The position numbers and the translations under genes were made by a program. DNA of 64,000 bases from Chloroflexota bacterium (lineage in GTDB: Bacteria > Chloroflexota > Dehalococcoidia > GIF9 > UBA5629), in assembly GCA_016875875.1 (NCBI GenBank), contig VGOP01000005.1:62001-126000 (forward strand). The letters run 5' to 3'. The notes beneath the pieces are model-generated. The model had not been told where the DNA came from. It searched no databases and saw only the letters and a program-made list of their open reading frames with translations. Numbering within the stretch: the first letter of the stretch is position 1; each line of letters opens with the position of its first letter. Shown piece by piece: positions 54,335-58,714 of this stretch.

Positions 54335-54727
54335 ATGGAAAAGATAAAGGTACTTATAGTCGATGATAATGAAGTGGTAAGGGAGGGACTCAAGAGCATC
54401 CTCGAGCCCCAGACTGATATAGATGTGGTTGGGGAGGCTGTGGATGGCCTTGATGCAGTGACGCAAGCGGAAAAGCTGAACCCGGATATCATTTTGATGG
54501 ATGCTCACATGCCCGGCATAGATGGCACAGAGGCAACCCGTCGAATAAAGAGGAGCCTGCCCGATGTCAAAGTTTTATTTTTAACGGTCTATGGCGATTA
54601 TGTCGGGTCAGCGCTTGATGCTGGTGCTAGTTGGTACCTGACCAAAGATTGCAGACGTCAGGACTTGATGGAAGCCATCAGGGTTTTGGCGCGGAGCAAC
54701 CGAGCAAAAGCGAAAAAGGCCGGCTGA
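54335..54727 (+). CDS. Stand-alone response regulator receiver
   Basis: 130 residues consisting of a receiver domain only: LIVDDNEVVREGL, phospho-acceptor IILMDAHMPGIDG, LTVYGDYVGSALDAGASWYL and TKDCRRQDL, with a short Lys/Ala-rich tail. There is no output domain. It resembles the NarL-type receiver of the neighbour, so it may have arisen from it by duplication and loss of the HTH. It could act as a phosphate sink or bind a protein partner. AGAGGTG precedes the ATG. Separated from the upstream regulator by about 190 bases. Confidence 0.85.
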   Translation: MEKIKVLIVDDNEVVREGLKSILEPQTDIDVVGEAVDGLDAVTQAEKLNPDIILMDAHMPGIDGTEATRRIKRSLPDVKVLFLTVYGDYVGSALDAGASWYLTKDCRRQDLMEAIRVLARSNRAKAKKAG

Positions 54728-54905: not shown

Positions 54906-54963
54906 TGAATTAAGCTGCAGGGGGCAAGGCTAGTTTGAAGTATTTTTAGGAGGGGGTGGAGCG

Positions 54964-55086
54964 ATGCCTATCTATGTGATGTTAACAACCTTGACTGATG
55001 AGGGCAGAAAGACCATTAAACCTGTTTATCCCTTTGTTTGTGGTATTGCCCTTTCCTGCTTTATGGGGGAGGGTCAGGGTAAGTGA
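54964..55086 (+). pseudogene. GYD-domain gene, 5' fragment
   Basis: ATG 54964 after AGGAGGGGGTGGAG opens MPIYVMLTTLTDEGRKTIK, the exact N-terminus of GYD-domain proteins (Pfam GYD family, about 95-100 residues, role unknown). Family similarity stops at about base 55020. From there the frame runs through foreign sequence (PVYPFVCGIALS...) to a chance stop at 55084-55086. The other end of the gene is at 57582-57708. The intact protein is therefore not made; a 40-residue chimera could be. Confidence 0.8.
55049..55080 (+). repeat. GA/CT-rich palindromic repeat, left flank
   Basis: ccctttcctgctttat followed by gggggagggtcagggt. The inverted relative on the other side of the glycyl radical gene is at 57530-57565. 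Such ctctcc...ggagagg(n)agggt blocks are common intergenic repeats in bacteria. Confidence 0.45.
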
Positions 55087-55102
55087 GAAAGTTCAGGCCA
55101 TC

Positions 55103-57469
55103 CTACACCTGAAGCCGCGTACGGTTGATGATCTCTCGCTTGGCAGCATCGGGGAGGTCATCGAAATAGGCGCAATAACCGGATACGCGTACCACCAACT
55201 CTGGATATTTCCCCGGATTGCGCCGGGCATCCTCCAGCATCTCAGGGTCGAGCACATTCAACTGCATTTCCAGCCCCTTTGAGCCGAAAAAGCCCTTCAC
55301 TAGACCGGTAAGTATGTCCAACCCTCGGTCGCCAGCTATAGTATTGGGGTCGAAACGGAGGTTCATAGCATAACCGTTTGGCGACAGTGCCGAGTCCACG
55401 TGCGCCACGGAGTTAAGCAAGGCTGTCGGTCCTAGCCGGTCACAACCGTTGGTGGCGCCCATGCTGGCAGCGAGCGGCTCCCCAGACTTTCTACCGCTGG
55501 GTAAAGCCGCTGTTCGCTTGCCGAAAGCTACATGGCAGGTCACGGAATAGAAACCGGGCACATAGGGACCGCCACGTGTATTGCGGTGCTGGGCTAAAGC
55601 TGAGTGGAAAATATGCACCACCTGATTGGCATAGCCATCAGGCAGGCGATGGTCATTCCCATATTTAGGGGCTTTGAGCAGTTCAGCCTGGAGTTCAGGA
55701 GACGAAGCGAAGTTATCACGCAACGCCTCCAGTACCTTAGCCATAGTATACTTGCGACGCTGGAAAACCACATAATCCAGAGCCGCCAGCGAATCAGCTA
55801 GGTCAGCCACTCCCACCCCCTGAATGCCGCTGGAGTTATATAAAGCTCCGCCAGCAGTTACATCACGTCCTGATTCCAGACAGCCATCTACCAGCATGGA
55901 CGAAAATGGCGTGGGGTGATAACCACGGTTCCCCTGTTCAATCACCTGCAGGTCATTTATCATCCGTGCCACCATATACCTCACCTGCGTCTTAAAGGCT
56001 TTAATCACCTGGTCAATGCTGGTGAAAGAGATGGGGTCTGAGGTGGCTGCGCCAATTTTACGTCGACCGTTGAGCCGTCGGCCACCATTGAGCGCCAGCT
56101 CAAGGCAGAGAGGAAGATTAAATAATGCCGCATCGGTGGAGAAGAAGCTCTTTCCCGGCAGAGCCAGCTCCACACAGCCGACCACGGCATAATTTCGTGC
56201 CTCCTCCAGTGGATAGCCATGAGAGACAAGCGAGGCTATGGCCGCCTCATCATTGAACAGGGCTGGCACCCCATTGCCTTTCCTGGCCACATCCGCCGCT
56301 CGCCTCAGATAACTTTCAGGAGAACCGACGTGGATGCGTGCCTGATAGTTCGGGTCACGCAAGCCAGATTCCTCCATCACGTCGAGAAAGATATGGGTAA
56401 GGTCATTAACCACGTCTTTCCCCTCTCGGTCCAGACCCCCGACTATCGCCGCCTGCACCACCAGGTAGCCGCCATGATATTGGCTGACCCCCTCGGAAAG
56501 CAGGAAGACATGCTCAGTTGCCTTAGCCGAGAAACAGAGCAGCAGTTCGCGGGCTCGTTGTGGAGTGATTCGCTCTTCTTGTAGGTCACGCTGGTAGTAA
56601 GGATAAAGATACTGGTCCATCCTGCCGAAGGAGATAGCGGAGTTGAGCCCTTCAAGGCACACCGCCATATGCGTCAGCCACAGCGACTGCAGGGCTTCAT
56701 GAAAAGTGTCGGCCGGGTTATATGGGACTCTGCGGCAGATGCGGGCTATTTCCTTCAGCCCAGCGGCACGCTCCTCATCCTTTTCCTTAATAGCTAAACG
56801 CTCAGCCTCGTCCCCTAGCCGCCCGGCATAATCAACCAGCCCTTCACAGGCAACTCTCGCCGCTCGGTGGAGGTCACTTTCCTTTCCCGCCATAGTTTCC
56901 AGATAGCCTTTTACACCCAGCCTGAGCATCTTCTGGTAGTTAGGCAGGAAGTGCCCGATGCCGCCGGCTTCGTTAATCAAGTAATAGGTAGCCTTAAGCT
57001 GCTCCAATACATAGCGCAGCAGCTCACGCCGACGCCCAGAGAAAGCCCGCACCGGCATATTGCGGAAAAGCCAGTAAGGAAAAACACCGAACAGCAGCTT
57101 CAAGCGGTCGCGCCAGGGGATGTGCAAAGGGGTTGTCTTCCTCTTATCAATCCACAGCAGGTCGGTGGCCATGAAGACACCGCTCAGCTCGGGCTGGATA
57201 ATAGCTGAGATGCGCTGGCTACCCATGCTACCCACGATGAGTTCATCTGGATAGATGCGCACCGACTTATGCCTTAGCAGATGGCGCAGAGCCTTAGCCT
57301 TGCGGATTATCATCGGCTCGGTTGGGTCATCGTGATGTTTAAAGTAGTCGGTGATGAGATATGCCCGCTCCGGGCACATGTGGACTTGGGTGGAGAGAAG
57401 TTCATGCTTTATGCGCCTAAAGCGTGGCGAGGCTTCTTTCTTTTCCACAGTGCTAACCTGCTTTGCCAT
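55103..57469 (-). CDS. Glycyl radical enzyme (pyruvate formate-lyase/dehydratase family), orphan
   Basis: About 788 residues. The catalytic cysteine is residue 432 in VVGCVELALPG (family GCVE) and the glycyl radical site is Gly 764 in VVRVSGYCAYF (family RVxGY), 24 residues from the C-terminus, where it belongs. The N-terminal region begins after ATG 57469, which follows an AAGGGGG. Length and motifs place it in the PFL2/glycerol-dehydratase-like superfamily; the substrate cannot be named. These enzymes need a radical SAM activase, normally next door; none is in the window. It sits inside a broken GYD-domain gene, in opposite orientation, and its codon usage is more GC-rich than the neighbours, so acquisition by transfer is likely. 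Confidence 0.88.
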   Translation of the reverse strand: MAKQVSTVEKKEASPRFRRIKHELLSTQVHMCPERAYLITDYFKHHDDPTEPMIIRKAKALRHLLRHKSVRIYPDELIVGSMGSQRISAIIQPELSGVFMATDLLWIDKRKTTPLHIPWRDRLKLLFGVFPYWLFRNMPVRAFSGRRRELLRYVLEQLKATYYLINEAGGIGHFLPNYQKMLRLGVKGYLETMAGKESDLHRAARVACEGLVDYAGRLGDEAERLAIKEKDEERAAGLKEIARICRRVPYNPADTFHEALQSLWLTHMAVCLEGLNSAISFGRMDQYLYPYYQRDLQEERITPQRARELLLCFSAKATEHVFLLSEGVSQYHGGYLVVQAAIVGGLDREGKDVVNDLTHIFLDVMEESGLRDPNYQARIHVGSPESYLRRAADVARKGNGVPALFNDEAAIASLVSHGYPLEEARNYAVVGCVELALPGKSFFSTDAALFNLPLCLELALNGGRRLNGRRKIGAATSDPISFTSIDQVIKAFKTQVRYMVARMINDLQVIEQGNRGYHPTPFSSMLVDGCLESGRDVTAGGALYNSSGIQGVGVADLADSLAALDYVVFQRRKYTMAKVLEALRDNFASSPELQAELLKAPKYGNDHRLPDGYANQVVHIFHSALAQHRNTRGGPYVPGFYSVTCHVAFGKRTAALPSGRKSGEPLAASMGATNGCDRLGPTALLNSVAHVDSALSPNGYAMNLRFDPNTIAGDRGLDILTGLVKGFFGSKGLEMQLNVLDPEMLEDARRNPGKYPELVVRVSGYCAYFDDLPDAAKREIINRTRLQV

Positions 57470-57529
57470 AGATGCCCCCTTCTTGCCAGCAGAATAGGCC
57501 ATTCCCCACCGCAATGTCAAGGACTGGTT

Positions 57530-57565
57530 CTCCCTAACTCTGCCTCTCTCCCGCCAGGAGAGAGG
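57530..57565 (-). repeat. GA/CT-rich palindromic repeat, right flank
   Basis: Contains the perfect hairpin CCTCTCTCC-cgcca-GGAGAGAGG (57543-57565) with ctccctaactctg on its left; its reverse complement resembles the left-flank copy at 55049-55080. Confidence 0.5.
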
Positions 57566-57581
57566 AGATCCTTTTAAACTA

Positions 57582-57708
57582 GATGCTCTAAATAATCAGG
57601 TCATCTGCAAGTTAGCTATAGAGTTGGGCTCTAGGGGGCACTCTTTAGACAATGACCATGGCGGCTATTGATGTTGACAGCTTTATCGCTAATTTAAAGA
57701 GGAAGTGA
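57582..57708 (+). pseudogene. GYD-domain gene, 3' fragment
   Basis: From 57582 the plus strand reads DALNNQVICKLAIELGSRG, and after a frameshift near 57640 TMTMAAIDVDSFIANLKRK with a TGA at 57706-57708. Both parts match the C-terminal third of GYD proteins (ELGSRG and the ending xAIxVDxFIxxLK). With 54964-55020 this accounts for roughly half of the gene. The frameshift shows decay after the split. The convergent nitronate monooxygenase gene ends 47 bases further on. Confidence 0.78.
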
Positions 57709-57754
57709 CTATATCTAAGCCTAGCTTTGCCCCCTGAAGCCGCTGAGATCCTGA

Positions 57755-58714
57755 TTATCTTAAACGGGCCAGAACTGCTTCGTAGTTATCGACGATGCTT
57801 TTGATGACCTCGCCGACGCTTTTGATTTCCTTAATCATGCCGGCTATGGAACCGCAATAGACTTCGCCACTAGTCAGGTCTCCTTCGAACTGTCCGGTCC
57901 GTGACCTACCACTCCCAATGAAGGCTAGCAGCTCTTCAACTGAAGCTCCAGCAGCTTCCATCTCCAATAGTTTGGCGGCCAGTTCGTTCTTCAGTATCCT
58001 GGTTGGTCCAAGTTTCCTACCGGTAATGACAGTGTCAACGTCGCTAGCTTTTACTACTGCCTCTTTGAAGTTTTTGTGGGCAGCACACTCGTGTGTAGCC
58101 ACAAAGCGGGTGCCCATCTGGACGCCATCGGCACCCAGTGCCAGAGCAGCTACTACGCCTCTGGCATCAGCAATCCCACCAGCGGCTACTACTGGGATTG
58201 TTACCGCATCTGCTACCTGCGGTATCAGGGTAAAAGTAGTAAGTTCATCTAGGCCGTTGTGACCACCGGCTTCATAGCCCTCTGCAATAACTGCGTCCAC
58301 GCCTCGTCTTTCGGCACTTTGGGCATGTTTCACTGCTGCAACCAGATGGAGGACTTTTATCCCGGCTTCTTTGAGTCGGCTTGTGTATATGGCTGGATTA
58401 CCAGCGGCTGTCACCACTACTTTTACCTTAGTATCAATGGCCGCAGCGACCAACTCCTCGATCTGGGGATTGTTCAATATAGGTAGATTAATTCCGAAAG
58501 GTTTGGAAGTTAAGCTTCTGGCTATTTCTATCTGCTTTTTTAGATTTTCTACCTGGTCGCCATTGAGGCTCATTCCGGCGGTAGGACTGATTAAGCCCAA
58601 GCCTCCTGCATTGGAGACCGCCGCAGCCAATTCAGCATTGGTGATCCATACCATTCCCCCCTGAATTATGGGGTATTTGATGTCCAACAGGTCACAAAGT
58701 CTTGTCCTCTTCAT
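57755..58714 (-). CDS. Nitronate monooxygenase / enoyl-ACP reductase II-like flavoprotein (copy 4)
   Basis: 319 residues, FMN TIM barrel. Motifs: DIKYPIIQGGMVWI, SNAGGLGLISP, TSKPFGINLPIL, EGYEAGGHNGLDE with the conserved His, PVVAAGGIADARGVVAALAL and GTRFVATHECAAHK. It is closer to the FabK/EGGH-type than copies 1 and 3. ATG 58714 lies after AAAGGAGG and 15 bases behind the adenine deaminase stop, so it is the last gene of an hpt-ade operon. Why a flavoprotein joins purine salvage is unclear. The substrate is unknown. Confidence 0.88.
   Translation of the reverse strand: MKRTRLCDLLDIKYPIIQGGMVWITNAELAAAVSNAGGLGLISPTAGMSLNGDQVENLKKQIEIARSLTSKPFGINLPILNNPQIEELVAAAIDTKVKVVVTAAGNPAIYTSRLKEAGIKVLHLVAAVKHAQSAERRGVDAVIAEGYEAGGHNGLDELTTFTLIPQVADAVTIPVVAAGGIADARGVVAALALGADGVQMGTRFVATHECAAHKNFKEAVVKASDVDTVITGRKLGPTRILKNELAAKLLEMEAAGASVEELLAFIGSGRSRTGQFEGDLTSGEVYCGSIAGMIKEIKSVGEVIKSIVDNYEAVLARLR

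Follow-up and report, generated by a model that had tools for sequence, protein, structure and literature searches.

Triplex-forming repeats in bacteria have a statistical tie to genome instability, but defined events are scarce. The TM_ECO/PIT motifs of E. coli have been tied to raised genomic instability without mobility genes nearby, and variability is raised around them in E. coli strains (Holder et al. 2015, PMC4666352). A second class of dispersed bacterial repeat, the REP/BIME elements associated with RAYT transposases, combines a hairpin with an asymmetric tail and often occurs in inverse pairs. The locus described here has counterparts in both. The window, i.e., the whole stretch of DNA that was analysed, covers 64 kb (G000:C5:62001-126000) of a 1.97-Mb genome in 20 contigs, referred to as G000, from an uncultured and anaerobic bacterium of Dehalococcoidia type. 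Canonical repeat copies in this genome share with TM_ECO/PIT the layout CCCTCTCCC-loop-GGGAGAGGG-TTAGGGTGAGGG, the intergenic position, the lack of mobility genes and the link to rearrangement. In contrast to the published motifs, the present case concerns a single gene that is flanked by two degenerate copies and has become lodged in another gene; both copies in the window have eroded, and the left one may have lost the ability to form the structure. The locus represents one natural event with an empty site, a reciprocal site and repeats at both edges, and for this reason the step from motif to rearrangement becomes open to testing.

The initial annotation considered the mechanism open. The repeats now name intrastrand-triplex motifs as a candidate, and the history of the enzyme gene appears to be non-vertical. 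Our preferred reading, to which we assign a probability of about 0.6, is that a non-vertically acquired, stand-alone glycyl radical enzyme gene, with its own promoter and bounded by TM/PIT motifs, was joined into a GYD gene by transposase-free illegitimate recombination.

A glycyl radical enzyme gene within a broken GYD gene

The features of the locus are as follows.

54335..54727, plus strand: response regulator, left flank of the empty site; syntenic in G001, G015, G003, G007, G008 and G009
54964..55020, plus strand: GYD 5' fragment, 19 codons, MPIYVMLTTLTDEGRKTIK; 80-81% DNA identity to the intact orthologous loci in G001 and G015
55021..57578, no strand: inserted segment of 2,558 bp replacing 105 bp of GYD; missing at the orthologous site of G001 and G015
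55047..55087, plus strand: degenerate G/C-rich triplex-motif repeat, type A, tail towards the enzyme 3' end; pattern match with 3 mismatches, profile E=0.36
55103..57469, minus strand: intact glycyl radical enzyme gene; Pfam PFL-like (PF02901) E 6e-179, Gly_radical (PF01228) E 3e-23
57491..57520, minus strand: likely promoter of the enzyme gene, TTGACA-18 bp-TATTCT, read by eye; common to G001 and, less closely, G015 and G009
57526..57566, minus strand: degenerate triplex-motif repeat, type B, opposite in orientation to the left repeat and with its tail towards the enzyme 5' end; nhmmer E=3.5e-7
57579..57709, plus strand: GYD 3' fragment with a frameshift near 57630 and an in-frame TAG; 78% DNA identity to G015
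57755..58714, minus strand: FabK/nitronate monooxygenase-like gene, right flank of the empty site; Pfam NMO E 1e-70 (score under the TIGR03151 cut-off); syntenic in relatives

Both plus-strand fragments can be aligned to a single intact GYD orthologue, within a gene order that is conserved. The left DNA match to the intact loci covers 54837/54874-55020 (80-81% identity, E 7e-41 and 4e-32) and the right one 57579/57594-57750 (71-78% identity, E 1e-12 and 2e-30). The initial annotation had taken an N-terminus at 54964-55020 and a C-terminal remnant for the two ends of one GYD gene, with the glycyl radical enzyme on the opposite strand between them, and these matches bear it out. Its expectation that each fragment would match GYD proteins holds as DNA against the orthologous locus but not for the N-terminal fragment in a protein HMM search, where this piece alone is too short for significance (Pfam GYD E=0.28). 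In G001, G015 and G007 the intact orthologues are recognised as proteins with a GYD domain (PF08734), a domain for which the literature search returned one passing mention only; the G000 copy differs from them as a pseudogene without the middle 35 codons.

Of 18 codons compared in the 5' fragment, 17 still encode the residue on which three relatives agree, and the upstream DNA and ribosome-binding region of this fragment are also kept in relatives. In the 3' fragment, private changes affect 4 of the 12 residues before the frameshift that are identical in three relatives; intact GYD copies differ from each other at 5-8 of about 80 residues. The frameshift had already been proposed; a nonsense codon is additionally present, the L-Q-T of G015 reading L-stop-T. 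No complete GYD open reading frame exists at the locus. Taken together, the private changes, the frameshift and the stop indicate that the remnant is a true pseudogene.

The capture event with partial deletion and later decay suggested initially is corroborated by an empty site, with intact GYD and no enzyme gene, in G001, a genome of the same genus, and in G015, which belongs to a different genus of the family. In both genomes the conserved gene order is sensor kinase, two response regulators, GYD, a 259-aa ORF, the FabK-like gene, adenine deaminase and phosphoribosyltransferase. Homology to the empty site ends at 55020 and restarts at about 57579 (L066 7182 and 7288 in G015). The deletion thus amounts to 105 bp or 35 codons (G015 L066 7183-7287) rather than the roughly 45 codons first estimated, if the right break is at 57579, an edge that is certain only to about 15 bp. 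A second, intact GYD gene of G000, at C5:5658, is paralogous and lies apart from this gene order. The refuting scenario of an intact GYD gene elsewhere and no empty site thus does not apply.

Further changes are found to the right of the insert. G000 has lost, at window 57740-57755, the 259-aa ORF (L066 7591-8370) that separates GYD from the FabK-like gene in G001 and G015, and the spacing from GYD to the FabK-like gene is 50 bp compared with about 0.9-1 kb in relatives. At the orthologous place, G003, G008 and G009 have neither GYD nor the 259-aa ORF, so that the interval from response regulator to FabK-like gene is generally labile. An RNA family search of the insert interval returned no hits.

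Could the arrangement be an assembly chimera? The genome looks metagenome-derived (20 contigs, with metagenome-assembled near relatives), and misjoins typically arise at repeats such as those at both edges. Nevertheless, two misjoins would be needed, both into the same GYD gene and with only 105 bp lost. The flanks are syntenic on both sides, the enzyme gene is single-copy in the genome, and the decay of the remnant argues for a real event. We therefore regard a chimera as highly improbable.

A 16-20 bp inverted repeat (54914-54933 / 57721-57740; CTTCAGGGGGCAAAGC / GCTTTGCCCCCTGAAG) brackets the GYD gene, just 5' of its ribosome-binding site and just 3' of its stop, and is conserved in G001 and G015 and partly in G007. 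It was rejected as the ends of the insert because it lies outside it and is present in relatives where GYD is intact.

The enzyme gene, its settings and its ancestry

The enzyme comprises 788 aa from the likely ATG at 57469, or 805 aa from a TTG further upstream; this TTG, the start given in the ORF list, is 51 bp upstream of the ATG and within the promoter region. Its translation contains a PFL-like core and a glycine-radical domain, with the motifs GCVE and RVSGYCAYF supplying the catalytic Cys and Gly. The enzyme is intact and under purifying selection (dN/dS about 0.09). The best solved relative is the B12-independent glycerol dehydratase 1r8w, and full-length homology, the glycyl radical loop and GCVE are common to enzymes of the B12-independent glycerol/diol dehydratase type (PFL2-like). 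From GCVE and overall similarity, a diol-dehydratase-like chemistry would be predicted. The window enzyme differs from this type in scoring under every curated cut-off of the NCBIfam equivalogs (HypD, CutC, glycerol dehydratase and others) and in having no radical-SAM activase gene adjoining it in the window neighbourhood; activases are encoded elsewhere in G000, at C7:69007, C3:131063 and C3:134765. The literature search returned no Dehalococcoidia paper on this glycyl radical enzyme, whose nearest named relatives come from metagenome-derived genomes of Chloroflexota (Dehalococcoidia-type).

Homology to the relatives' enzyme copies stops at 57521, with the promoter just inside. Its position within the homologous stretch and its presence in G001, G015 and G009 indicate that the gene arrived with its own predicted promoter.

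The setting of the gene varies widely. It is found between an M50 protease and a response regulator in G001, beside a glycosyltransferase and an HD-domain regulator in G015, and elsewhere again in G009/G020 and in G011, so that within the close group its location keeps changing. In G000, the M50 protease/response regulator interval is continuous and without the enzyme, i.e., a reciprocal empty site. A fixed neighbourhood (DUF4389, CMD-family protein) is present in genera g3, g11 and g16 of the family. Orthologues (L189-L247, 60-86% identity) extend over Chloroflexota, Desulfobacterota, Syntrophia and Actinomycetota with few stable neighbours; those of Desulfobacterota and Actinomycetota share 60-76% identity, and their neighbours change. 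One actinobacterial group keeps its orthologue in a fixed setting. The activase (cluster 2) is never an immediate neighbour of these orthologues and is two genes off only in L213 and L225, beside a second enzyme. As a control, an activase-linked enzyme pair stays together in G000, G001 and G015. In Chloroflexota, Desulfobacterota and Actinomycetota, a widespread enzyme is thus almost always an orphan whose neighbours change from place to place, in contrast to the enzymes of the same genomes that are linked to an activase.

The trees of the enzyme and of its flanks conflict. Enzyme DNA pairs G000 with G015 at support 91/94 and rejects G000 and G001 as a clade, with a p-AU of 0.0024 (0.034 when third positions are excluded). 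In the flank DNA tree, by contrast, G015 falls outside the genus, and here it is the G000+G015 grouping that is rejected (p-AU 0.0004). On protein sequence alone, the enzyme tree leaves G000+G001 unrejected (p-AU 0.06). Regarding composition, the suggested GC and codon comparison gave an enzyme GC3 of 61.0 against 49.6 +/- 4.8 for the window genes, a contrast that is weak on its own because the orthologues are GC3-rich as well (54-60). The tree conflict and the high GC3 together indicate that the enzyme gene did not simply descend in place. Vertical inheritance within the genus was rejected on DNA (p-AU 0.0024), and transfer between lineages would be the simplest reading.

These data also bear on relocation within the genome, according to which the enzyme was inherited vertically at the M50/response-regulator site and later moved into GYD. 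This site is filled in G001, a member of the same genus, and empty in G000, and enzyme and flanks have diverged to a similar overall extent between genomes. Against this stand the enzyme DNA tree and the 3' end of the gene, where a repeat directly before ACTTCAG/AGTTCAG is common to G000 and G015 and absent in G001 and G009. Moreover, the flank tree joins G003 to G000 (91/95, unstarred), yet a close copy of the gene is missing from the G003 assembly, which is only 77% complete. We consider such a relocation unlikely and favour the joining of a non-vertically acquired gene.

Putative triplex-motif repeats beside the enzyme gene

The GA/CT-rich inverse repeats reported initially on both sides of the enzyme gene are confirmed. 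Allowing up to 3 mismatches, GGGAGAGGGNNAGGGTGAGGG matches twice in 64 kb, at 55065 (+) and 57532 (-), with 0.01 matches expected by chance. Profiles built from the genome copies recover the right repeat clearly (57564-57528, E=3.5e-7) and the left one weakly (E=0.36). Single-strand DNA folding compared with shuffles gives z=-2.1 for the right repeat and z -0.3 for the left, which is no better than shuffles.

Genome copies of type A read CCCTCTCCC-TTGAC-GGGAGAGGG-TTAGGGTGAGGG-TGAAA and those of type B CTCTCTCCC-...-GGGAGAGAG-TTAGAGTGAGGG, the two types often forming inverse pairs. The three-domain layout of pyrimidine arm, purine arm and purine third strand in canonical copies elsewhere in G000 matches Table 1 of PMC4666352; in the window it is recognisable in the right copy and degenerate in the left. 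Type A agrees in sequence with TM_ECO of E. coli and is, judged by this layout, the predicted intrastrand-triplex motif TM_ECO/PIT.

Matches to the core pattern number only about 10-18 per genome, and repeats lie 8-283 bp from the enzyme in G000, G001 and G015. Throughout 1.07 Mb around enzyme genes, clear copies were found in these three genomes only, all but one less than 300 bp from the enzyme; the other close carriers G009, G011 and G020 have no such repeats. The chance of this nearness is roughly 3e-5 over all bases and about 0.01 for an assumed 15% intergenic share; since the repeats prefer intergenic DNA, raw counts overstate how unusual a position near a gene end is. Repeat positions hardly persist from one genome to another, with one shared locus pair among the 30 loci compared. 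In G015, a related motif with an interrupted tail occupies the same spot beside the enzyme 3' end. The 5' side of the G001 enzyme (L062 7577-7700) is a mosaic of dispersed repeats (TCATTGCGAGGAGC..., GCGAGGCTAAAGCCTC..., triplex motif) within about 350 bp.

The order of the repeats differs between genomes: B(-) A(+) enzyme in G015 and A(+) enzyme B(-) in the window. The latter is a circular permutation of the former, which suggests a circular or tandem intermediate. The enzyme might accordingly travel as a circle or tandem copy together with an inverse triplex-motif pair, and the order A-enzyme-B would result if the circle opened between the paired hairpins. We hold this extension to be quite unlikely; if true, triplex-motif pairs would act as transposase-free break points by which single genes hop between places and lineages.

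Proposed joining of the segment into GYD

Under illegitimate recombination, the reading favoured here, breaks or fork stalling at triplex motifs would produce free ends, and an enzyme fragment would be joined into GYD with little or no homology, at most TTAAA, with 105 bp of the target probably lost on joining. Survival of the enzyme gene would be explained by its own promoter and by access to an activase from another locus, while GYD would decay as dispensable, the paralogue at C5:5658 remaining. The junction sequences carry no nucleotide-level sign of a triplex-mediated break.

A search for target duplications near 55020 and 57580, proposed at the outset, yielded none that is clear, only the 5-bp TTAAA at 55016-55020 and 57574-57578. 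TTAAA at both edges could be microhomology, or equally the target duplication of some element. The second option leads to a transposable element or MITE composite, in which the inverse repeats would be terminal inverted repeats cut by a transposase encoded elsewhere. The inverse repeats at both edges, the TTAAA copies and two Y1-transposase genes in G000 agree with this. However, the outer ends (tails) of the repeats point towards the gene rather than the target, an arrangement unlike that of terminal inverted repeats; the target shows a loss of about 105 bp instead of a duplication; and no transposase ORF is present in or beside 55021-57578, as the initial annotation had stated. Furthermore, whereas hairpin, asymmetric tail and inverse pairing of the window repeats resemble REP/BIME elements, the Y1-transposase genes lie among GTAGGGACAG palindromes and not among these repeats. 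Movement of the enzyme by a RAYT was rejected, the Y1-transposase genes being tied to the other repeat family, and a transposable element in general is distinctly improbable compared with transposase-free joining.

The two Y1-transposase (RAYT-like) genes themselves, L184 and L186 (G000:C2:211209-211526 and 225751-226071), are surrounded by TGTAGGGACAGGTCT...AGACCTGTCC palindromes, which form a second repeat family similar to the GTAG-tagged REPs of the literature.
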